DNA of 64,000 nt from positions 2,916,501 to 2,980,500 of the forward strand of contig NZ_JADBEG010000001.1 in the NCBI RefSeq assembly GCF_014873755.1, in the 5' to 3' direction. The notes beneath the pieces were generated by a model. That model did no database searches and was not told the origin of the DNA. It saw nothing but the letters and a program-made list of their open reading frames with translations. Origin of the DNA: Amycolatopsis lexingtonensis (GTDB lineage: Bacteria; Actinomycetota; Actinomycetes; Mycobacteriales; Pseudonocardiaceae). The translations under genes were made by a program, and so were the position numbers. Position 1 is the first letter of the stretch. Each line of letters opens with the position of its first letter. This document shows, one piece after another, positions 33,482 through 44,683 of the stretch.

Positions 33482-34585
33482 TCAGCGGTCCTGGCGGTAG
33501 CGCCGGAGTTTTTCGGGATCGATCTCGGCACCGAGGCCGGCGCCGGGGCGGACGGCGAGTTCGCCGTCGCTGATGCACATCGGTTCGGCGAGCAGGTCGT
33601 CGCTCATGTCGAGGAAGTTGGACAGCTCGCCGGCGCGCCGTGAAGTCAGCTCGTACGCCGCCCCGAAGGCGACGGTGCACAGCGAACCGAGCTGGCCGTC
33701 GATCTGGTTGCCCATCACGACTTCCAGGCCGAGGCCCTCGGCGAGGTGGTGGGTGCGCTGCGACCGCGTGAAGCCGGTGCGCGCGGTCTTGATGCTCACC
33801 GCCGTCGCGGACCCGCCGAGGATCTCGCGGGTGACGTCGGCGGGCGTCACGGCCGACTCGTCGGCGATGAACGGGACGTCCAGCCGCTGCACGAGCCACC
33901 GCCGGCCCAGCACGTCGTCGGCCGGGCACAGCTCCTCCGCGAAGAGGAGGTCCAGATCGGCCATCTCCTTCATCGCGCGCGCCGACTCGGCGGCGGTCCA
34001 GCCGCGGTTGCCGTCGACGTAGAGGTCGGCGCTGTCACCGAAGTGCTCCCGCAAGGCACGCACGACCGCGGTGTCCAGCGACGCCGGGCGGCGGCCCACC
34101 TTGACCTTGAACGTCGTGATGCCGTGGGTCTGGCGCATCTTCTCGGCCTCGGCGACCATCGCCGCGGGCTCGTCGAACCCGAGCATGTGCGCCACGCGCA
34201 TGCGGTCGGTGTAGCCGCCGAGCAGCTCGGTCACCGACACGTCGAGGCTGCGCCCGAGCGCGTCCCAGATCGCCATGTCGATGGCGGACTTCGCGGCCGG
34301 GTTGCCGACCGTCCGGGACAGTCGCGTGTGGACGGTCTCGCGGTCGAGCAGGCTCAGCCCGACGACCTGCGGCGCGAAGATCGAGTCGATGACGGCGACG
34401 ATCCCGGCCTGGGTCTCGCCGTAGGTGAACGGCCGCGGGGGCGCCTCGGCCACGCCCACGACGCCGTCGTCGGTGTGCACCCGCACGAGGACGTGCTCGG
34501 CGGTGCGCACCTCGCCGGAGGCGAACCGCAGCGGCTTGCGGTACGGGATCGCGAACGGGATCGCCTCGACGTGCGTGATCTTCAT
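33482..34585 (-). CDS. catB: Muconate cycloisomerase
   Basis: 367 residues, enolase superfamily. Catalytic KxK is in TTFKVKVGRRP; metal ligands lie in LYVDGNRGW, LLFAEELCPADD and PFIADESAV; a second Lys is in AVSIKTARTGF. This is the MLE-subgroup arrangement. It cyclises cis,cis-muconate to muconolactone. Its ATG overlaps the LysR stop, so regulator and enzyme are co-translated. Confidence 0.95.
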   Translation of the reverse strand: MKITHVEAIPFAIPYRKPLRFASGEVRTAEHVLVRVHTDDGVVGVAEAPPRPFTYGETQAGIVAVIDSIFAPQVVGLSLLDRETVHTRLSRTVGNPAAKSAIDMAIWDALGRSLDVSVTELLGGYTDRMRVAHMLGFDEPAAMVAEAEKMRQTHGITTFKVKVGRRPASLDTAVVRALREHFGDSADLYVDGNRGWTAAESARAMKEMADLDLLFAEELCPADDVLGRRWLVQRLDVPFIADESAVTPADVTREILGGSATAVSIKTARTGFTRSQRTHHLAEGLGLEVVMGNQIDGQLGSLCTVAFGAAYELTSRRAGELSNFLDMSDDLLAEPMCISDGELAVRPGAGLGAEIDPEKLRRYRQDR

Positions 34586-35490
34586 CGGCTGACCTCCGAG
34601 GGTGGCCGGGTGGACGGGAAGACGTCCTCGAGCGCGGCGAGGACGGTCGAAACGAGCGGGGACCGGGTTTCGCGGTGCCAGGCGAGCGCGAGTTCGACGC
34701 TCGCCGCTCCCGCCACGTCCCGGAAGACGACGCCGGCCAGGGGCAGCGACCGCGCCGACGCGGGCACGACGCCGATGCCGAGGCCGCCGGCGACCAGCGC
34801 GAGCAGCGGCGCGGTGCCGGGTGCCTCGTGCTGGCGGCGCGGGGTGAAGCCCGCTTCGCGGCAGCTGCGCGCGACCGCTTCGTGCACCACCGAGTTGCGC
34901 CCGGTGTAGGTCACCAGCGGCTCGGCCCGCAGGTCGCTCATCGCCACCACCGGCTCGACCGCGAGCCGGTGGTCGGCCGGGACCGCGAGGATGAGCGGCT
35001 CGGCCTCGATCACGCGGAACGCGATGTCGTCCCCGGTCACCGGCGGGCGCAGCACGCCGATGCCGAGCGTGCCGGCCCGCAGGAGCTCGCACTGTTCGGC
35101 GGTGAGCAGGTCGGCGCGGACTTCCAGCTCGACCTGCGGCACCCGCTGGGCGAGCGCCCGGGCCAGGTGCGGCAGGTGGGAGAACGCGGCCGTCCCGGTG
35201 AAGCCGATCCGGACCAGGCCGAGCTTGCCCTCGCCGATGCGCCGGACCCCGCGCACCCCGGCGTCGACGGCGGCGAGCACGTGCCGGGCCTCGGCGAGGA
35301 AGAACTCGCCCGCCGGGGTGACGCTGACCTGGCGGGTGGTGCGGGCCAGCAGGGCCACGCCGAGCTCGTCCTCCAGCTGCCGGATGGCGTGCGACAACGC
35401 CGGCTGGGCGATGTGCAGCCGCTCGGCGGCGCGGCCGAAGTGGCACGTCTCGGCGACGGTGGCGAAGTAGCGCAGGTGACGGAGTTCCAC
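34582..35490 (-). CDS. LysR family regulator of the cat/ben genes
   Basis: 302 residues from the GTG at 35490. N-terminal helix-turn-helix VELRHLRYFATVAETCHFGR, AQPALSHAIRQLEDELGVAL matches the CatR/BenM subgroup, which senses muconate and benzoate. It is unusual in being the first gene of the cat operon rather than facing it, and it faces benA instead, so one site could control both directions. Confidence 0.9.
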   Translation of the reverse strand: MELRHLRYFATVAETCHFGRAAERLHIAQPALSHAIRQLEDELGVALLARTTRQVSVTPAGEFFLAEARHVLAAVDAGVRGVRRIGEGKLGLVRIGFTGTAAFSHLPHLARALAQRVPQVELEVRADLLTAEQCELLRAGTLGIGVLRPPVTGDDIAFRVIEAEPLILAVPADHRLAVEPVVAMSDLRAEPLVTYTGRNSVVHEAVARSCREAGFTPRRQHEAPGTAPLLALVAGGLGIGVVPASARSLPLAGVVFRDVAGAASVELALAWHRETRSPLVSTVLAALEDVFPSTRPPSEVSR

Positions 35491-35573
35491 GGTGAGCCTC
35501 CTCCCGGTGCCGTTGTCGCCGATCACCTCACGGTAAGGAGCAAGCTGATCGAAGACAAAGACCTGATGTCGAG

Positions 35574-35596: not shown

Positions 35597-35665
35597 ATCG
35601 CACCCTGGGTCAGGTCTAGGCAGATGTCCGGTGTGACCGACCGCACGGCCTGTCATGGTCGATCC

Positions 35666-37027
35666 ATGACCGAGATGCTGGAGCACGTGTCCGCCGTCGT
35701 CGCCGACGCCGTCGTCGAAGACCCCGAAGCCGGCGTCTACCGCGCCAACCGGCGGATCTTCACCGACGAAGGGGTCTTCGAGCTGGAGATGAAGCACATC
35801 TTCGAGGGCAACTGGATCTACCTCGCCCACGAGAGCCAGCTGCCGGACCCCGGCGACTACTTCACGACGTACATCGGGCGCCAGCCGGTCGTCATCACCC
35901 GGGACGCCGGCGGCGAGCTGCACTGCCTGATCAACGCCTGCGCCCACCGCGGGGCGATGGTCTGCCGCCGCAAGACCGACAACCGCACCACGCTGACCTG
36001 CCCGTTCCACGGCTGGACGTTCCGCAACGACGGCAAGCTGCTCAAGGTCAAGGACCCCGACGGCGCCGGCTACCCGGACAGCTTCGACACCGGCGGCTCG
36101 CACGACATGACGCGCGTCGCCCGCTTCGACTCCTACCGCGGCTTCCTGTTCGGCAGCCTCAACCCGGACGTCACGACCCTGGAAGAGCACCTCGGCGACA
36201 CCACCAAGGTGATCGACATGCTCGTCGACCAGTCCCCCGACGGCCTCGAGGTGCTGCGCGGCGCGTCGACCTACACCTACGACGGCAACTGGAAGGTGCA
36301 GGCCGAGAACGGCGCCGACGGCTACCACGTCACCGCGACGCACTGGAACTACGCGGCGACGACCGCCCGGCGGAACACCGGCGAGTCCAAGAACAGCACC
36401 AAAACGCTCGACGCGGGCAGCTGGGGCAAGTCCGGCGGCGGCTACTGGTCCTACCCGAACGGGCACCTGTGCCTGTGGACGTGGGCGGGCAACCCGCAAG
36501 ACCGTCCACTGTGGAACCGCATGGCGGAGCTGAAGGAGAAGTTCGGCGACGCCAAGGGCGAGTTCATGGTCCGCGGGTCCCGCAACCTCTGCCTGTACCC
36601 GAACGTGTACCTGATGGACCAGTTCTCCACCCAGATCCGGCACTTCCGGCCGATCGCGCCGGACAAGACCGAGGTCACCATCTACTGCATCGCACCCAAG
36701 GGCGAGAGCGCCGACGCACGGGCGTGGCGGATCCGCCAGTACGAGGACTTCTTCAACGCCTCCGGCATGGCCACCCCGGACGACCTCGAGGAGTTCCGCT
36801 CCTGCCAGCTCACCTTCCGCGCCACCGCCGCGCCCTGGAACGACATGAGCCGCGGCGCGCGGCACTGGCTCACTGGCCCGGACGAAGTGGCCGAGGCCCT
36901 GGGCATGACGGGCGTGATCTCCGCGGGCAAGAAGAACGAGGACGAGGGCCTCTACCCCGTCCAGCACGGCTACTGGCGCGAGACCATGCAGGCCGCGATC
37001 GCCGCCGAGCGAGGAGAAACCCGATGA
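35666..37027 (+). CDS. benA: Benzoate 1,2-dioxygenase large subunit
   Basis: 453 residues from the ATG at 35666 (an upstream ATG at 35624 is possible). Rieske site: [11 protein letters not shown] and CPFHGWTF (Cys-His, Cys-His). The mononuclear iron site begins with [16 protein letters not shown] (two His). Size and motifs match BenA/XylX, which dihydroxylates benzoate to a 1,2-cis-diol-1-carboxylate. No clear ribosome site precedes the start. Overlaps benB by 4 bases. Confidence 0.95.
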
Positions 37028-37530
37028 CGACCGCCGAAAAGACGATCACCCAGCACGACATCGAGCAGTTCCTCTACCGCGAAGCCCGCTACCTCGACGA
37101 CCGCGAGTTCGAGAAGTGGCTGGAGTGCTACGCCGACGACGTCGTCTACTGGATGCCGTCCTGGGGCGACGACGACCTGCTGACCGAAGACCCGCAGACG
37201 TCGATCTCGCTGATCTTCTACCCGGACAAGGGCGGCCTGGAGGACCGGGTGTTCCGCATCCGCACCGAACGCTCGAGCGCGACGTCGATCCCGGAGCCGC
37301 GGACCAGCCACAACATCACCAACGTCGAGCTGATCGAACGGCGCGGGGAGGTCGTGGACGTCCGGTTCAACTGGCACACCATGTACTTCCGGTACAAGAC
37401 CGTGGCCCCGTACTACGGGACTTCGTTCTACACCATCGACTTCTCCGGCCCCGCGCCGCTGATCCGCCGCAAGACCGTGGTGCTCAAGAACGACTACATC
37501 CACCACGTCGTCGACGTCTACCACATCTGA
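37024..37530 (+). CDS. benB: Benzoate 1,2-dioxygenase small subunit
   Basis: 168 residues, cone-shaped NTF2-like fold. [40 protein letters not shown] and [20 protein letters not shown] are typical of BenB. It has a structural role in the alpha3-beta3 oxygenase. The ATG overlaps the benA stop, and the fused reductase follows after 9 bases. Confidence 0.94.
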
Positions 37531-37539
37531 GGTCCCGTC

Positions 37540-39993
37540 ATGACGCACCAAGTCGCACTGTCCTTCGAGGACGGTGTCACCCGGTTCATCACGTGCGCGC
37601 CGGACCAGACGGTCGCGGACGCGTCCTACCGCCAGCGCATCAACATCCCGCTGGACTGCCGCGACGGCGCCTGCGGCACGTGCAAGGCGTTCTGCGAGTC
37701 CGGCGAGTACGACGGCGGCACCTACATCGACGACGCGCTCACCGCCGACGAAGCCGGACGCGGGTACGTGCTGCCGTGCAGCATGAAACCCAAGTCGGAC
37801 CTGGTCCTGCGGATCGCGAGCACGTCGGCGGTCGCCAAGACGCAGGCCGCCACCTACCCGGCGACGATCACCGCGCTCGACCGGCTCTCCCCCACGACCA
37901 TGGCGGTCACCCTGGAGACGCCGGAGCGGGACAAGCTGGCTTTCCTGCCCGGCCAGTACGTCAACATCGCCGTGCCCGGCACCGGCGAATCCCGGTCGTA
38001 CTCCTTCAGCAACGCCCCCGACGAGAAGCACCTGACGTTCCTGGTGAAGATCACGCCCGGCGGCGTGATGTCGGAATACCTGACCGGGCGGGCGAAAACC
38101 GGCGACGAGCTGACCTTCACCGGCCCGCACGGCAGCTTCTTCCTGCGGGAGACCGACCGCCCGGTGCTCCTGCTGGCCGGCGGCACCGGGCTCGCGCCGA
38201 TCCTGTCGATCCTGCGCACCCTGCGGGCGGCCGGATCCACCCGGCCCGTCCACCTGATCTACGGCGTCAGCACCGACGACGACCTCGTCGAAGTCGAAAC
38301 GCTCGAGGAGCTGGCCGCCCAGGTCGAGAACCTCACCTGGGACCACTGCGTGGCCGATCCGGGCAGCACCGCGCCCCACAAGGGGTACGTCACGACGCTC
38401 ATCCGGGACGAGCACCTGCACGGCGGCGACGTCGCGGTCTACCTGTGCGGGCCGCCGCCGATGGTCGAGGCCGTCCGCGAGCACTTCAGCGGCGCCGGGT
38501 TCGAGCCGACCGGGTTCTACTACGAGAAGTTCGCCCTCGCCGCGACGCCGGTTCCCGAACCCGTCTCGGTGCCCGAGCCCGTCGTGGAGCAGCCGCCCGC
38601 GAGCCGCGGCCTGGGCGGGCAGGACCTGTTCCCGGCCGTCGCGGTCGACCCCCTGTGGGCGGGGACACCGCTCTCGGCCACCGCCGAGGCCGCCGTCGCC
38701 CGGACGATCGCGGGACAGGACGTGTTCCCGGCGCCGCCGTCGTCCGGCCACTACGAGATCGGCGAAGAACACCCGTCGGTGCACGAGTCGGACGCGGTGT
38801 TCGAAGCGCGTCAAGCCCTCGAACTGGGCGCGCTGGAACTCACCATCGGCCGGCTGGATTCCCGGCAGCTCGCCGGGTACCGGCTGCTCGCCGAGTCGGC
38901 GGTGCCCTATGTGGACGGTGACCGGTTCGTCGACGCCGCCGCCTACACCGAGGCCAACGCCGCGTTCCACGACTACCTGTTCACCCTCACCGGCAACGAG
39001 CACCTCCTGCAGGCCTACCGCGCGCTCGGCGTCAAGGGCCACATGGAGACCACGCTGCGGAACGCGACCTGGTGCCACCCGCGCTGCACGCAGGACCACC
39101 TCGACATCGTCACCGCCTTCGAAGCGGGCGACCGCGCCACGGCCCGCCGGCTGATCGCCGAACACGCCGGCCGTTCGAAGCTGACCACCCGCCGGGCGAT
39201 GGCCACCGAGCCCGCGCGGCCGGCGTTCGTCACGCCTGGCCGGTTCGACGGCAGGGTCGTCGTCGTCACCGGCGCCGCCCAGGGCATCGGCGAGCGGACC
39301 GCACGTCGGATCGCGGCCGAAGGGGGCTCGGTCGTCCTGGCCGACCGCTCCGATCTGGTCCACGACGTCGCCGGCGAACTCGCGGGCGAGGCCGTGGTCG
39401 CCGACCTGGAGACCTGGGCGGGCGCGCAGGCCGTGGCCGAGGCGGCGCTCGCCCGGTTCGGGCGGATCGACGTGCTCGTCAACAACGTCGGCGGAGCCAT
39501 CCGGTTCAAGCCGTTCACCGAGTTCTCCCCGGCGGAGATCGAAGCCGAGCTGCGCCGGTCGCTGCTGACCACGTTGTTCGCCTGCCGGGCCGCGCTGCCG
39601 TCGATGTCCGCGGGCGCGGTGATCGTCAACGTCTCCTCGGCCGCCACCCGCGGCATCCACCGGATTCCCTATTCCGCGGCCAAGGGCGGGGTCAACGCCC
39701 TCACCGCGTCGCTCGCCTTGGAGTACGCCGACGCGGGGATCCGGGTCGTCGCGGTCGCCCCCGGCGGCACCGAGGCACCCCCGCGGCGCGTCTCCCGCGG
39801 CGGCTCGGCGTTGGAAACCGACCAGGAACGGGCCTGGTTCCAGGCCCACATCGACCAGACGCTCGAGTCGTCGCTGCTCAAGCGATACGGCACGCTGGAC
39901 GAGCAGGCCGCGGCGATCGCGTTCCTGGCCTCCGACGAGGCCTCCTACGTGACCGGGACGGTGCTGCCCGTAGCCGGGGGCGACCTCGGCTGA
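37540..39993 (+). CDS. benCD: Three-part fusion: BenC reductase, FCD sensor-like domain, BenD diol dehydrogenase
   Basis: 817 residues in one uninterrupted frame. Residues 1-~340 are BenC: 2Fe-2S ferredoxin (C40, C45, C48, C80), FAD site RSYSFSN (152-158) and NAD site GGTGLAP (214-220), ending FYYEKFA. A Pro-rich linker with two GQDxFPA repeats leads to an FCD domain (~412-550; YTEANAAFHDYLF, TQDHLDIV, EHAGRSK give the metal-ligand pattern of GntR-type FCD sensors) but with no DNA-binding helix. Residues ~569-817 are BenD: VVVTGAAQGIGERTA, NNVGG, PYSAAKG. The ends supply electrons to BenAB and oxidise the diol to catechol. An ATG at 39199 could start BenD alone. Confidence 0.93.
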   Translation: MTHQVALSFEDGVTRFITCAPDQTVADASYRQRINIPLDCRDGACGTCKAFCESGEYDGGTYIDDALTADEAGRGYVLPCSMKPKSDLVLRIASTSAVAKTQAATYPATITALDRLSPTTMAVTLETPERDKLAFLPGQYVNIAVPGTGESRSYSFSNAPDEKHLTFLVKITPGGVMSEYLTGRAKTGDELTFTGPHGSFFLRETDRPVLLLAGGTGLAPILSILRTLRAAGSTRPVHLIYGVSTDDDLVEVETLEELAAQVENLTWDHCVADPGSTAPHKGYVTTLIRDEHLHGGDVAVYLCGPPPMVEAVREHFSGAGFEPTGFYYEKFALAATPVPEPVSVPEPVVEQPPASRGLGGQDLFPAVAVDPLWAGTPLSATAEAAVARTIAGQDVFPAPPSSGHYEIGEEHPSVHESDAVFEARQALELGALELTIGRLDSRQLAGYRLLAESAVPYVDGDRFVDAAAYTEANAAFHDYLFTLTGNEHLLQAYRALGVKGHMETTLRNATWCHPRCTQDHLDIVTAFEAGDRATARRLIAEHAGRSKLTTRRAMATEPARPAFVTPGRFDGRVVVVTGAAQGIGERTARRIAAEGGSVVLADRSDLVHDVAGELAGEAVVADLETWAGAQAVAEAALARFGRIDVLVNNVGGAIRFKPFTEFSPAEIEAELRRSLLTTLFACRAALPSMSAGAVIVNVSSAATRGIHRIPYSAAKGGVNALTASLALEYADAGIRVVAVAPGGTEAPPRRVSRGGSALETDQERAWFQAHIDQTLESSLLKRYGTLDEQAAAIAFLASDEASYVTGTVLPVAGGDLG

Positions 39994-40010
39994 ACCCGCG
40001 TGAGGTGGAC

Positions 40011-42668
40011 GTGACACGACCGGCGCAGCCGCTGATCGGGCGAGCGGAGCTCGTGGCCGGGCTGGAGCAGGGCCTCCGGACCGGCCACAACCGCTTCGTG
40101 CTGCTGGCCGGGCCGCCCGGCAGCGGCACGTCGGCCATCGCCGCGCACCTCGCGCGCAGCCACCACGGCCCGACCCACCGCGCGACCGCGGCGGCGTGGG
40201 AGTCCCACTGTCCGTACGCCCTGCTCACGCAGGCGTTCCCCGGGCTCCCGACGTCCGAGCCGTTCCGCACCGCCGGGGAACTCGCCGCCCGGCTCGACCC
40301 CGGCACCCTGCTGGTCGTCGACGACGCCCACCTCGCCGACGAGGCCTCGCTGCAGACTCTGGCCTCCGCCCTGCGCCACCACCCGGACGCCCACCTGCGG
40401 ATCATCGCCACCGCCACCACCGGCGACCCGCGGGCGAGTGCCGCGGCGCTCGACCTGCTGCCGCGCATCGCGACCGACCACCCCCGGATCCCGCCGCTGG
40501 ACGCCGCGCAGATCAGCGAACTGGCCGCCGCCTACGGCATCGCGCTCCACCCTTCGATCGCCGAACGGCTGCTGCGCCACAGCCTCGGGCGGCCGAAGCC
40601 GGTGGTCGAGCTGCTCACCGAGCTGCCCAAGACGACCTGGACGCAGTTCGACCCCACGCTGCCCGCCCCGGCCACGGTCACCGCCCGCGTGCGGGACGCC
40701 CTCGCGGCGTGCTCGCCCCCGGCCCGGCGGTTCGCCGAGGCGGCCGCCGTCCTCGGCACCGATACCGCGGTGCAGGACGTCGTCGCGCTCGCCGGGCTCG
40801 ACGCCGGCCCGCTGGAGCTGCTGGACGAAACCGCCGCCGCCGGCCTCGTCCGGCTGGCCCCGCGCGGGCTCACCAAGGTCGGCCCGCCCGACCCGACGGT
40901 GCGCGCGGCCGTCCTGACCGAACTCGGCCCGGCCCGGCGCGCCGTGCTGCAACGGCGGGCCGCGGAGCTGGTCACCGATCCGGTCCGGGCCCTGCGCCTG
41001 CTGGCGGCCGCCAGCCCGGTGCCCGACGCCGCCGTCGCCGTCCGGCTGGACGACCTGGCCCGCGAGCGGGCCGCCGAAGGTGCCTGGGGCACCGCGGCGA
41101 CGTTGCTCAGCGACGCCGGCCGGCTCACCGACGACCCGCAGCTGCGGCAGGCCCGCATCACCCGCGCCGTCGACGCGCTGATCGGCGCGGGCGACGTGTT
41201 CCGGGCGGCGGCCCTGGTCCCGGAAGTGGAAAGCATCCGGGAAACCCCGCTGCGAGACGCCGTTCTCGGCTACCTGGCCGTGGTTCGCGGCCGCGCCACC
41301 GAGGCCGGCACCCGGCTCCGCCGCGCCTGGGACATCGTCAACCCCGAGCGCGATCCCGAGACCGCCGCGCTCATCTGCCAGCGCTACGTCCTCGACGCCC
41401 TCGCCCGCTACGACGGCCGCGACCTCGTCCGCTGGGCCGACCGCGCCATCGAGCTCGCCGGCGCCGACACCCCGCCGGCCGTCGAAGCCGCCGCCATCCG
41501 CGGCCTCGGCCTGGCCGCCACCGGCCGGGCTAAGCAGGCCCGGCGCGACTACGAGCAGCTCACCACGCGCCTGCGCCACGGTGCACAGGCGCAGCGCGCG
41601 ACGATGGCGCGCGGCTGGCTCGGTCTGCTCACCGACCGGCTCGACGACGCCCGCGTCGACCTGGAAACCGCCGTGCCCACCAGCTACCTCGGCGGCTCCG
41701 CGCGGATTTCGCTGTGGGCCCGCGCGTGGCTGGCGCGCACGCAGTTCCTCACCGGCGAACTCGACGACGCCCTCGCCACCGTGCGCGAGGCCTCGGATCT
41801 GCAAGAACGGACCGGCATCCTGCTGACCGGCCCGCTGCTGTCGTGGACGGCCGCGGCGGTGCACGCGCTGCGCGGCGAGTGGGACGCCGCCGAGGCCCAC
41901 CTCCTGCGCGGCGGCACCGGGGCGAGCGACTACCCGATCATGCGGATCCCGAGCCTGCTGGCGCGAGCGCACGTCGCCGAGGCCCGCGCCGACTCCGCCG
42001 GTGTGCTGCGCGCGCTCCACCCGTTCACCCGGCCGTCGCCGGAGTCCAGCGCCGACGAACCCGGCCACTGGCCCTGGCAGGACATGTACGCCCACGCCCT
42101 GATCCTGCTCGGCCGGCTCGATGAAGCCGGGGAATTCCTTGTCCCGCACGAAAAACTGGCCGCCAAGCGCGACCACGCGTCCGCGCGTGCCCGCCTCGCC
42201 GCGGCCCGCGGCCGCCTCCACGGCGTCCGGGGCGACGTCACCGGTGCGACCGCCTGTTTCGACGAAGCTCTCGAACTGATCAGCACCCTGCCCCTGCGTT
42301 ACGACCAAGCCCGCGTCAACTTCGGGTACGGCCAGACCCTGCGCCGTCTCGGCCGCCGCGCCCGCGCCGACGTCGCGCTCACCGCCGCCCGCGACGGCTT
42401 CGCCGCGATGGGCGCGACGACGTACGTCGACCGCTGCGACCGCGAGCTGAAAGCCGGCGGCGTCCACCTCGCCCGGTCGGACTCGACACTGACGCCGCAG
42501 GAGGAAGCCGTCACCCGGCTCGTCGCACGGGGGATGTCGAACAAGGAGGTCGCCGCGGAACTGTTCCTGTCGAGCAAAACCGTCCAGTACCACCTGACCC
42601 GCGTCTACGCGAAGCTCGGTGTCCGCTCGCGGACGGAGCTGGCGGCCCACCACCGCACCGAGGACTGA
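40011..42668 (+). CDS. LuxR-family ATPase regulator (LAL type) with altered Walker A
   Basis: 885 residues; GTG at 40011 behind GAGGTG. N-terminal AAA-like ATPase: Walker A is GPPGSGTS (34-41), where the invariant Lys is Thr; Walker B is LLVVDDAHLAD. A long helical repeat region follows and a C-terminal LuxR helix-turn-helix (LTPQEEAVTRLVARGMSNKE, LSSKTVQYHLTRVYAKLG). LAL proteins are large activators of catabolic or antibiotic genes. It starts 17 bases after the BenC-FCD-BenD fusion and is probably the ben activator. The Lys loss may weaken ATP hydrolysis. Confidence 0.9.
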   Translation: MTRPAQPLIGRAELVAGLEQGLRTGHNRFVLLAGPPGSGTSAIAAHLARSHHGPTHRATAAAWESHCPYALLTQAFPGLPTSEPFRTAGELAARLDPGTLLVVDDAHLADEASLQTLASALRHHPDAHLRIIATATTGDPRASAAALDLLPRIATDHPRIPPLDAAQISELAAAYGIALHPSIAERLLRHSLGRPKPVVELLTELPKTTWTQFDPTLPAPATVTARVRDALAACSPPARRFAEAAAVLGTDTAVQDVVALAGLDAGPLELLDETAAAGLVRLAPRGLTKVGPPDPTVRAAVLTELGPARRAVLQRRAAELVTDPVRALRLLAAASPVPDAAVAVRLDDLARERAAEGAWGTAATLLSDAGRLTDDPQLRQARITRAVDALIGAGDVFRAAALVPEVESIRETPLRDAVLGYLAVVRGRATEAGTRLRRAWDIVNPERDPETAALICQRYVLDALARYDGRDLVRWADRAIELAGADTPPAVEAAAIRGLGLAATGRAKQARRDYEQLTTRLRHGAQAQRATMARGWLGLLTDRLDDARVDLETAVPTSYLGGSARISLWARAWLARTQFLTGELDDALATVREASDLQERTGILLTGPLLSWTAAAVHALRGEWDAAEAHLLRGGTGASDYPIMRIPSLLARAHVAEARADSAGVLRALHPFTRPSPESSADEPGHWPWQDMYAHALILLGRLDEAGEFLVPHEKLAAKRDHASARARLAAARGRLHGVRGDVTGATACFDEALELISTLPLRYDQARVNFGYGQTLRRLGRRARADVALTAARDGFAAMGATTYVDRCDRELKAGGVHLARSDSTLTPQEEAVTRLVARGMSNKEVAAELFLSSKTVQYHLTRVYAKLGVRSRTELAAHHRTED

Positions 42669-42722: not shown

Positions 42723-43586
42723 TCAGCTCAGCTTGTTCTTCGCCGACTTCGCCTTGCCCTTCACCTTGCCGACCGCGTCCATCGTCGGCGAATACGTGCC
42801 GTACAACGCCGGGTCGGGCCTCGGTGCGGTGCCCGGCCCGCCCAGGGGCTTCGGGTCGGTCAGGTACTCGATCCCGGCCTTGGTGGTCCAGCCGCCCTTC
42901 GGGCCGTCCGGTCCGTCGGACAGGCCCCAGATCGTGTTGTTGTGGGTCTGGTCTTCCTCGTCCAGCAACGCGTTCGGGGCGATCTCGCCCTCGAGGCCGT
43001 CGGCCTCCAGTTCCTCGATCGCCGCGAGCCACTGCTTCTGGTGCACGGTGTCGCGGGCGAGGTTGAACTGCAGCATCGCCTTCACGCCGGGGTCGTCGGT
43101 CATGTTGTACAACCGCGCGGTCTGCAGCCGCCCCTGCGCTTCGGCGGCGGCGTTGGCCCGGAAGTCCGCCAGCAGGTTGCCCGAGGCGATGATGTACTTG
43201 CCGTTCCACGGCGTGCCGTTGCTGTCCGCCGGCAGGGCGCCGCCACCGGCGACGATGGCCTGCTGCGGGTCCATGCCGCCGAGCACCGCCGCCATCACCG
43301 GATCCTTGACCGCTTCGGCGGTCGCGGTCGCGGGCGCGCCTTCCAGCAGCCGGGCGACCATGGTGGCGAGCATTTCGACGTGCCCGATCTCCTCGGTCGC
43401 GGTGTCCATGATCAGGTCCTTGTACTTGCCCTCGACGCGGCAGTTCCAGCCCTGGAACAGGTACTGCATGGTCACCGTCATCTCGCCGAACGCGCCGCCG
43501 ATCAGCTCTTGGAGCTTGTGCGCGTACACCGGGTCCGGCTTCTCGGGCTTGGCCTCGAACTGCAGCAACTTCGTGTGACGAAACAC
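42723..43586 (-). CDS. Manganese-containing catalase
   Basis: 287 residues, ferritin-like four-helix bundle. Metal ligands lie in GGAFGEMTVTMQYLFQGWN, ATEEIGHVEML, ANAAAEAQGRLQTARLYNMT and LARDTVHQKQW, the Glu-His/Glu-His pattern of dimanganese catalases. It removes hydrogen peroxide. The C-terminal tail is Lys-rich (KVKGKAKSAKNKLS). GTG start. Isolated gene near the carotenoid cluster, consistent with oxidative-stress defence. Confidence 0.94.
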   Translation of the reverse strand: MFRHTKLLQFEAKPEKPDPVYAHKLQELIGGAFGEMTVTMQYLFQGWNCRVEGKYKDLIMDTATEEIGHVEMLATMVARLLEGAPATATAEAVKDPVMAAVLGGMDPQQAIVAGGGALPADSNGTPWNGKYIIASGNLLADFRANAAAEAQGRLQTARLYNMTDDPGVKAMLQFNLARDTVHQKQWLAAIEELEADGLEGEIAPNALLDEEDQTHNNTIWGLSDGPDGPKGGWTTKAGIEYLTDPKPLGGPGTAPRPDPALYGTYSPTMDAVGKVKGKAKSAKNKLS

Positions 43587-43678: not shown

Positions 43679-44683
43679 TCAGGCGCGCAGGGCGTACCGC
43701 CGCTCGGCGTAGGCGAGGTCGTCACGCCACAGCCGCGCCGCCGTGTGCCGCATGAGCGGGCGGATCGCCGGCGCCAGCTTGGCCGCGACGGCGAAGCCCG
43801 GCCGCTCCGACGCGGCGATCGTCGCCTCGATCACCGCGGTCCGGGGCCGCCCGTCCGCGCCGGGGCCGAGCGGCGTCGCGTGCGTCTCCACCACGCTGCC
43901 TTCGCCTTCGCCCTCGACGATGCGCATCACGACCGTGCGCGGCTCGGGACAGGCGAACTCGGCCACGACGGGCACTCCCCAGCGCCCGGTGATCCGGAAC
44001 GTCACCTCGACGAGGAACCGGTCCTCCGCCTCGGGCACGTCGACGCCCTTCGGCGCCGAGAGCACCCGCAGGCGCGCGAAGGAGTAGGGGTGGAACCAGG
44101 CGCCGTGCCACGGGTCGAGCCGGTTCGCCACGACGTCCTCCGGTTCGCACACCCCGGTGAGCGTCGCGACGGCGTCGATGCGCGCGCCGTCCGGCCGGTC
44201 CGGGACCACCGGCCGGTCGGTGGGCTGCTCGCGCCCGGTCGCGTCGAGGCGGGCCCAGACGAGCACACCGTCGTCGTAGGCCGGGATCGGAGCCCAGCCA
44301 CCGCGGCGGCCGCCGCCGAGGCGCAGCCCGTGCCACCGGCAGACCAGCTCCCCGCGGTCGAGCCGGGCGTCGGCGAGCGGGGCGCCCAGGTGCGGGCACG
44401 CGCCCGGCCCGGCGCGGACCTCGCCGTCGCGGTCGCGCCACGCGACGAGCTCGCGGCCGGCGACCGTCACGCCGAAGGGCCGGTCCGGCCGCACCGATCG
44501 GCTGGCCCCGAGGACGAACCAGTTCCCGGACGGGCGGGCCGACGCGCGTTTGCCCGCGGCCTCGATGAGCGCGGGCGCGCAGTCGCGGTAGGTCGGTTCC
44601 TGGCCGGCCCACCGCGGTTCGCGGAACGGCTGGACGGGCCACCGCCGCGGCCAGAGCCCGGTGATGCGCTGACTGACGTTCAC
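43679..44683 (-). CDS. Rieske 2Fe-2S protein (DUF5914 type) of the carotenoid cluster
   Basis: 334 residues from the GTG at 44683. The Rieske motif is CPHLGAPLADARLDRGELVC followed by RWHG (Cys-His, Cys-His). A C-terminal SRPBCC-like domain (VANRLDPWHGAWFHPYSFAR, EVTFRITGRWGVPVVAEFAC) follows, as in Rieske oxygenases; whether the mononuclear iron site is complete is unclear. Proteins with this layout are found beside actinobacterial carotenoid genes and may oxidise a carotenoid ring. Divergent from crtE. Confidence 0.87.
   Translation of the reverse strand: MNVSQRITGLWPRRWPVQPFREPRWAGQEPTYRDCAPALIEAAGKRASARPSGNWFVLGASRSVRPDRPFGVTVAGRELVAWRDRDGEVRAGPGACPHLGAPLADARLDRGELVCRWHGLRLGGGRRGGWAPIPAYDDGVLVWARLDATGREQPTDRPVVPDRPDGARIDAVATLTGVCEPEDVVANRLDPWHGAWFHPYSFARLRVLSAPKGVDVPEAEDRFLVEVTFRITGRWGVPVVAEFACPEPRTVVMRIVEGEGEGSVVETHATPLGPGADGRPRTAVIEATIAASERPGFAVAAKLAPAIRPLMRHTAARLWRDDLAYAERRYALRA

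Follow-up and report, generated by a model that had tools for sequence, protein, structure and literature searches.

A GntR-type FCD domain with a predicted metal site, fused between the benzoate dioxygenase reductase BenC and the diol dehydrogenase BenD in Amycolatopsis lexingtonensis and other actinobacteria

Work on the effector domains of GntR regulators has mostly treated them as components of repressors. In the benzoate operon of Amycolatopsis lexingtonensis, within a 64,000-nucleotide stretch (contig NZ_JADBEG010000001.1, positions 2,916,501 to 2,980,500; hereafter the window), one such domain, of the FCD type, was found inside an enzyme. A triple fusion, with the reductase BenC, the FCD domain, and the dehydrogenase BenD in one frame inside the benAB operon, was confirmed. 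We give about even chances to a reading in which FCD would act as a metal-dependent, carboxylate-binding accessory module on a BenC/BenD chain with the potential to recycle NAD(H) by itself.

The frame runs from ATG to TGA (37540-39993, plus strand; 817 codons and a stop), and predicts an 86.6 kDa product of 817 residues. An earlier note on this sequence had read BenC, FCD, and BenD in a single frame, and Pfam and NCBIfam matches, each above its cut-off, agreed with it. The BenC equivalog NF040810 scored 492.5 bits over residues 3-332 (cut-off 430), the FCD family PF07729 scored 58.1 bits over residues 420-543 (cut-off 24.3, E = 1.6e-15), and the BenD equivalog NF040811 scored 393.3 bits over residues 568-817 (cut-off 380); the two equivalogs place successive pathway enzymes on one chain, as had been proposed. 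The ferredoxin cysteines C40, C45, C48, and C80 are invariant among 48 sequences. The BenD part, matched by the Pfam short-chain dehydrogenase/reductase (SDR) family over residues 572-814, contains TGAAQGIG and YSAAK, in keeping with the glycine motif and Tyr-x3-Lys that are hallmarks of SDR enzymes. The FCD domain was also correctly described as lacking a DNA-binding helix, as the GntR helix-turn-helix (HTH) family (PF00392) was not matched among Pfam families up to E = 1 anywhere in the 817 residues. A degenerate winged helix hidden in the linker was rejected, given the lack of any Pfam HTH match and the low-confidence coil of the structural model.

The length of a frame is no proof of a gene in this DNA, because a 1015-residue frame covers the same stretch on the opposite strand (36970-40017). 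The fusion is nevertheless considered real because its frame is conserved among relatives and in other genomes; a protein query with residues 340-560 retrieved 796 relatives at E ≤ 0.001, and 108 of the 120 listed are longer than 780 residues. No stop interrupts it, and a sequencing error was rejected as its source, many genomes having the fusion in an identical frame.

When named bacterial genomes were scanned with an alignment of FCD domains, 387 stretches matched, of which 242 encoded a relative; the best 80 loci were kept and, having been found by FCD patterns, are unable to show absence of the domain. BenC is in frame with FCD in 78 of these loci, and the contig ends first in the other two. 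All three domains form one frame in 49 loci (type II; Amycolatopsis, Saccharopolyspora, Prauserella, Nocardioides, Geodermatophilus, Mycolicibacterium, Williamsia, Gordonia, and others), and BenC-FCD is accompanied by a separate benD in 29 (type I; Rhodococcus, Dietzia, Arthrobacter, Paeniglutamicibacter, and one other member of the Micrococcaceae). In 30 of 31 unfused loci, the end of the FCD frame and the beginning of benD share 4 bp, and a small change inside this overlap could fuse FCD to benD; in type II, the two sides of the joint share one frame in 49 of 49 loci. Two candidate standalone FCD proteins, P0137 and P0144, were rejected, since they lie on contigs of ~1 kb and look like fragments; they resemble the BenC-FCD of Rhodococcus (93% to L038) and of Paeniglutamicibacter (by eye), respectively. 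P0145, an FCD-only relative of BenC-FCD with 161 residues on a 232-kb contig, is possibly a true standalone form.

Calls of absence rest on genome surveys that share genomes, used the window protein as the query, and leave distant BenC proteins uncounted. In the order survey, where genomes were sorted by how far the match extended within a single open frame and by inspection of the fetched loci, 48 of 397 genomes matched at E ≤ 1e-75: 38 with the triple fusion, two of type I (G642, G714), three with BenC-linker-BenD without FCD (G651, G715, and G580, in which most of BenC lies outside that frame), and five with separate BenC and BenD without FCD (G345, G634, G719, G738, and G667, whose benD is split over two frames). 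The class survey matched 28 of 394 genomes at E ≤ 1e-45, comprising the window's own fusion and ten others, one type I locus (G002), one locus without FCD (G345), and other reductases and dehydrogenases that matched more weakly. No further architecture was seen in the phylum survey, in which four of 396 genomes matched at E ≤ 1e-90.

Trees were built from quick searches, with support from the Shimodaira-Hasegawa-like approximate likelihood ratio test (SH-aLRT) only. In the BenC tree (98 rows, with proteobacterial BenC lacking FCD as outgroup), type II proteins and their derivatives, including the window gene, form one group (60 rows, SH-aLRT 99) with the type I rows outside it. The FCD tree likewise has one type II group (56 rows, SH-aLRT 95), and the BenD tree is less clean, with a type II group of 62 rows (SH-aLRT 93) that contains the unfused row L108. 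All three trees, that of BenD with less clarity, agree with a single history in which FCD was added to BenC before BenD was, the later fusion of BenD having most simply happened once. FCD was thus already on BenC when BenD arrived, and would not have originated as a sensor set between the two steps. Resolution fails at the deepest splits, including those of G002 (BenC-FCD with benD) and three short actinobacterial BenC proteins, and the placement of long branches, L138 among them, is unsure. The BenD parts of L136 and L135 (from G620 and G580) look nearer to type I by eye; a domain swap in these proteins was unsupported, since both fall with type II in the BenD tree.

The FCD-less G651, G715, and the pair G345/G634 fall in three places within the type II group of the BenC tree, which gives at least three losses of FCD (G580, without a BenC row, is outside this count). 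G651 retains a short remnant of the FCD end, and in G345 and G634 a linker motif still closes the BenC protein. FCD may never have been present in G719, G738, and G667, which lie near the base of the tree. Repeated loss of the whole domain while the enzymes stayed marks FCD as accessory. Among seven HTH-bearing relatives read at their ends, no close ancestor of the domain was found: P0204, P0207, P0208, P0212, P0213, and P0272 were rejected for lack of the third His described below, which P0163 has.

The FCD domain has a probable metal site, predicted from a conserved Asn-His-His-His set that backs the metal part of the metal and ligand site envisaged by the earlier note. N473, H477, H520, and H542 agree with the VanR-type arrangement (Asn or Asp with three His at fitting spacing), and the set is complete in 108 of 108 proteins and in 86 of 90 loci. 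It is of the same kind as, and closely spaced like, those of solved FCD regulators, namely the VanR-group regulators Atu1419 (6z74) and PS5454, the latter of which we take to be structure 3c7j. These regulators have a winged helix and bind DNA, whereas the FCD of the window is preceded by a reductase and a linker. A profile search matched FCD regulators; a sequence search of the PDB with the linker and FCD gave no match better than E = 0.21. R424 and T549, invariant in 90 of 90 loci, would line the pocket, judging from their position. Cys512 and Cys516 (residues 512-516, 39073-39087) directly precede His520 in almost every type II FCD inspected, whereas no type I FCD has them; they form a possible redox-sensitive pair.

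Where present, the domain evolves under purifying selection, as do the enzymes. Its median ratio of nonsynonymous to synonymous substitution rates (dN/dS) in five sets was 0.11 (the window gene against 14 relatives), 0.04, 0.12, 0.04, and 0.18, below that of BenC in all five and below that of BenD in four, values that are rough at a mean proportion of synonymous differences (pS) of 0.17-0.55.

The linker between BenC and FCD is predicted to be disordered (predicted local distance difference test score, pLDDT, <50 over residues 332-378 and 391-415), and its mean identity to relatives is 0.42, compared with 0.78-0.89 for the domains. Type II linkers have a mean length of 138 residues from BenC to FCD. 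That of the window carries two copies of a short motif, and R356, G360, and Q361 of the first copy are kept in 94-97% of 108 proteins. The pattern R-x-x-[AGVML]-G-[QR] occurs in 45 of 49 type II linkers with 96 copies, against a mean of 1.14 and a maximum of 5 in 200 shuffles, a control that overstates the surprise because the pattern was written after the linkers had been viewed. The commonest letters continue as x-[MILV]-[FLW]-P, giving for the disordered type II linkers the tandem consensus R-x-[IVL]-A-G-Q-x-[MILV]-[FLW]-P at a spacing of ~31 residues; of 51 spacings, 32 fall at 28-34 residues and 10 at 61-65. The pattern is missing from L079 and L105, which have Ile before Gly-Gln, and from L084 and L094, whose [AG]GQ copies are off-pattern or beyond the cut made by the script (the linker end of L060, which the script did not find, was checked by letters). 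The motif is absent from all 28 type I linkers that could be read, and three Dietzia linkers have a different repeat, I-[AEG]-A-R-P-x-G-x-x-P, in 2-3 copies each. Fused BenC-BenD proteins without FCD still carry the type II motif. Elsewhere in the A. lexingtonensis genome no copy was found with one 65-residue query, a weak test in which the best other match had E = 0.185. Our guess is that the partner of the motif is BenAB.

BenC passes electrons from NADH to the BenAB oxygenase, and BenD oxidizes the resulting cis-diol to catechol with regeneration of NADH. By this chemistry, one chain with a flexible linker would hold both halves of the NAD(H) cycle and could recycle the cofactor locally around BenAB, with benzoate + O2 -> catechol + CO2 as the presumed net reaction of the chain and BenAB. 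The FCD domain would have descended from the effector domain of a GntR/FCD regulator, the DNA-binding part being absent. Since the predicted metal ligands are kept, together with a basic residue that possibly belongs to the pocket, it would most likely bind a divalent metal along with a small carboxylate (benzoate, the cis-diol acid, and muconate are candidates), and would adjust or organize the enzyme in an accessory, probably dimeric, role. Regulation or organization fits the domain better than catalysis because it is old on BenC, constrained, and cleanly lost. The interpretation in the earlier note is partly supported, and its proposed gating of electron flow is a conjecture. The fusion, the predicted FCD fold, the conserved metal set, the purifying selection, the order of fusion, and the repeated losses are results of the analysis; metal binding, a ligand, a dimer, regulation, and NAD(H) recycling are what we infer. 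A fuller version would have the effector domain of a transcription factor recruited into metabolism as an allosteric part. In it, the metal-bearing FCD would sense benzoate or an acid further along the pathway and modulate a redox-neutral BenC/BenD enzyme, and the linker repeats would dock the chain on BenAB, giving a tethered benzoate-to-catechol assembly; this version is doubtful.

Several observations weigh against the accessory-module interpretation. FCD is absent from eight of the 48 matched genomes of the order survey, and is thus dispensable for some hosts, and four Rhodococcus loci (L041-L044) carry Thr at the position of the Asn ligand. The BenD of Rhodococcus (dN/dS 0.14) is more constrained than FCD, and BenA (0.05-0.13) and BenB (0.02-0.18) have values much like those of FCD; the constraint on the domain is therefore ordinary for this operon. 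The full-length model has a predicted template modeling score (pTM) of 0.41, hence no domain contacts were predicted, and its ferredoxin part is poorly modeled (pLDDT <50 over most of residues 1-101).

Tolerance of the loss of the whole domain would also suit a purely structural role, in which an FCD dimer or scaffold holds BenC and BenD near the oxygenase, and the metal stabilizes the fold with nothing being sensed. For Atu1419, dimer contacts in the FCD domain have been described, and replacement of the three His lowers the melting temperature by almost 20 degrees. The invariance of R424 and T549, pocket residues by their inferred position, weighs against a mere scaffold, and we regard this role as possible, if rather improbable. 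The neutral leftover of a gene fusion would likewise explain why FCD was lost more than once; it is strongly disfavored, the least probable of the explanations considered, since the low median dN/dS (0.04-0.18) and the conserved metal set are unlike a leftover.

The fusion would be partly formal if BenD were also translated separately from the ATG at 39199, as the earlier note had raised. The ATG itself is real (Met554); of the 54 type II loci that could be read at this codon, 52 have ATG; and the 4-bp overlap of the unfused relatives is an arrangement associated with translational coupling. Ile codons take its place in the other two, conservation of a Shine-Dalgarno-like stretch ahead of Met554 was not seen among the type II loci compared, and the joint stays in frame throughout type II; separate products are accordingly held to be unlikely. 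A role of FCD as decoy or partner for a transcription regulator, coupling the state of the enzyme to expression, is suggested by a regulator-derived domain lying beside LysR- and LuxR-type genes. The LuxR neighbor has no FCD match and the LysR neighbor is covered mostly by LysR families, which leaves no obvious partner at the locus and makes this role very unlikely.

The fusion gene starts nine bases after the benB stop, and its neighbors are listed with the other features in Table 1. On a Tsukamurella plasmid, the gene order matches that of this locus, and the fused gene is annotated as plain benC. Adjoining the ben operon are a manganese catalase gene (42723-43586, minus strand; NF052557, 401.8 bits) and a gene for a Rieske protein with a DUF5914 domain (43682-44572, minus strand). 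A different fusion, joining a BenC/XylZ-like reductase to a FAD-oxygenase-like part of ~500 residues, was noticed at L025:1489-3990, and also in L023, L024, and L026 from genomes of the same order; in L025, the only one read, FAD_binding_3 falls just below its cut-off and a monooxygenase-like gene adjoins (by eye).

Table 1. Features of the ben locus, in window positions.
Feature	Position	Strand	Basis
Muconate cycloisomerase-like gene (catB-like)	33485..34600, start approximate	-	TIGR02534 192.3 bits, below cut-off 334.95
LysR-type regulator, divergent from benA	34585..35538, start approximate	-	LysR family matches
benA, dioxygenase large subunit	35624..37027	+	TIGR03229 799.7 bits, above NCBIfam cut-off
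benB, dioxygenase small subunit	37024..37530	+	TIGR03232 266.9 bits, above NCBIfam cut-off
BenC-linker-FCD-BenD fusion gene	37540..39993	+	Open frame, translation, Pfam, NCBIfam, conservation in relatives
BenC 2Fe-2S ferredoxin domain, residues 10-85	37567..37794	+	Pfam Fer2
BenC FAD-binding domain, residues 108-200	37861..38139	+	Pfam FAD_binding_6
BenC NAD-binding domain, residues 211-313	38170..38478	+	Pfam NAD_binding_1
Disordered linker, residues 334-402	38539..38745	+	pLDDT, low identity
Linker motif copy 1, residues 356-365, RGLGGQDLFP	38605..38634	+	Motif counts in type II linkers
Linker motif copy 2, residues 388-397, RTIAGQDVFP	38701..38730	+	Motif counts in type II linkers
FCD domain, residues 403-555, without winged helix	38746..39204	+	
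Asn473, predicted metal ligand	38956..38958	+	Conserved set
His477, predicted metal ligand	38968..38970	+	Conserved set
His520, predicted metal ligand	39097..39099	+	Conserved set
His542, predicted metal ligand	39163..39165	+	Conserved set
Internal ATG, Met554, possible BenD start without support	39199..39201	+	Sequence
BenD, benzoate cis-diol dehydrogenase, residues 567-817	39238..39990	+	NCBIfam BenD equivalog
LuxR-type regulator, directly downstream of the fusion	40011..42668, start by eye	+	Pfam GerE, AAA_16

The triple fusion is already published for one Gordonia genome: in G. alkanivorans YC-RL2, benC and benD were described as fused with an FCD domain (PMC6362181, 2019), in a cluster that, like the window, also has LysR and LuxR regulator genes. 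The description takes a few sentences, and the portion of PMC6362181 consulted does not mention a metal site, the history of the fusion, losses, or a repeat in the linker; no literature search aimed at these points was made. Elsewhere, benC-xylZ of Rhodococcus TG-1 is called an FCD domain-containing protein (PMC11858498), and benC of R. ruber is double-named as reductase and dehydrogenase (PMC6498646). The BenC-FCD of Rhodococcus resembles the window protein in having BenC and FCD on one chain in the same operon, and differs in its separate, overlapping benD and its short linker without the AGQ repeat. BopZ of Rhodococcus strain 19070 is presumably such a BenC-FCD with a separate benD; in 2001, it was reportedly found to have an extra C-terminal region of ~200 residues unlike known proteins, and a size of ~60 kDa when produced in E. 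coli. The BenC and BenD of Proteobacteria (Pseudomonas, Roseomonas plasmids) are the same enzymes in the same benABCD order, but are encoded by separate genes and have no FCD match. No functional test of a BenC-linked FCD was found in the literature searched, part of it seen incompletely and with subscription journals mostly outside its coverage.

These findings place an effector domain inside an enzyme of many actinobacterial genera, where its metal set has been kept and the domain itself dropped several times. The losses provide natural pairs, with and without FCD, for asking whether the domain regulates catalysis, and the conserved linker repeat poses a separate, testable question of docking. 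The chain also offers a ready-made BenC-BenD fusion for biocatalysis and for work on aromatic waste.
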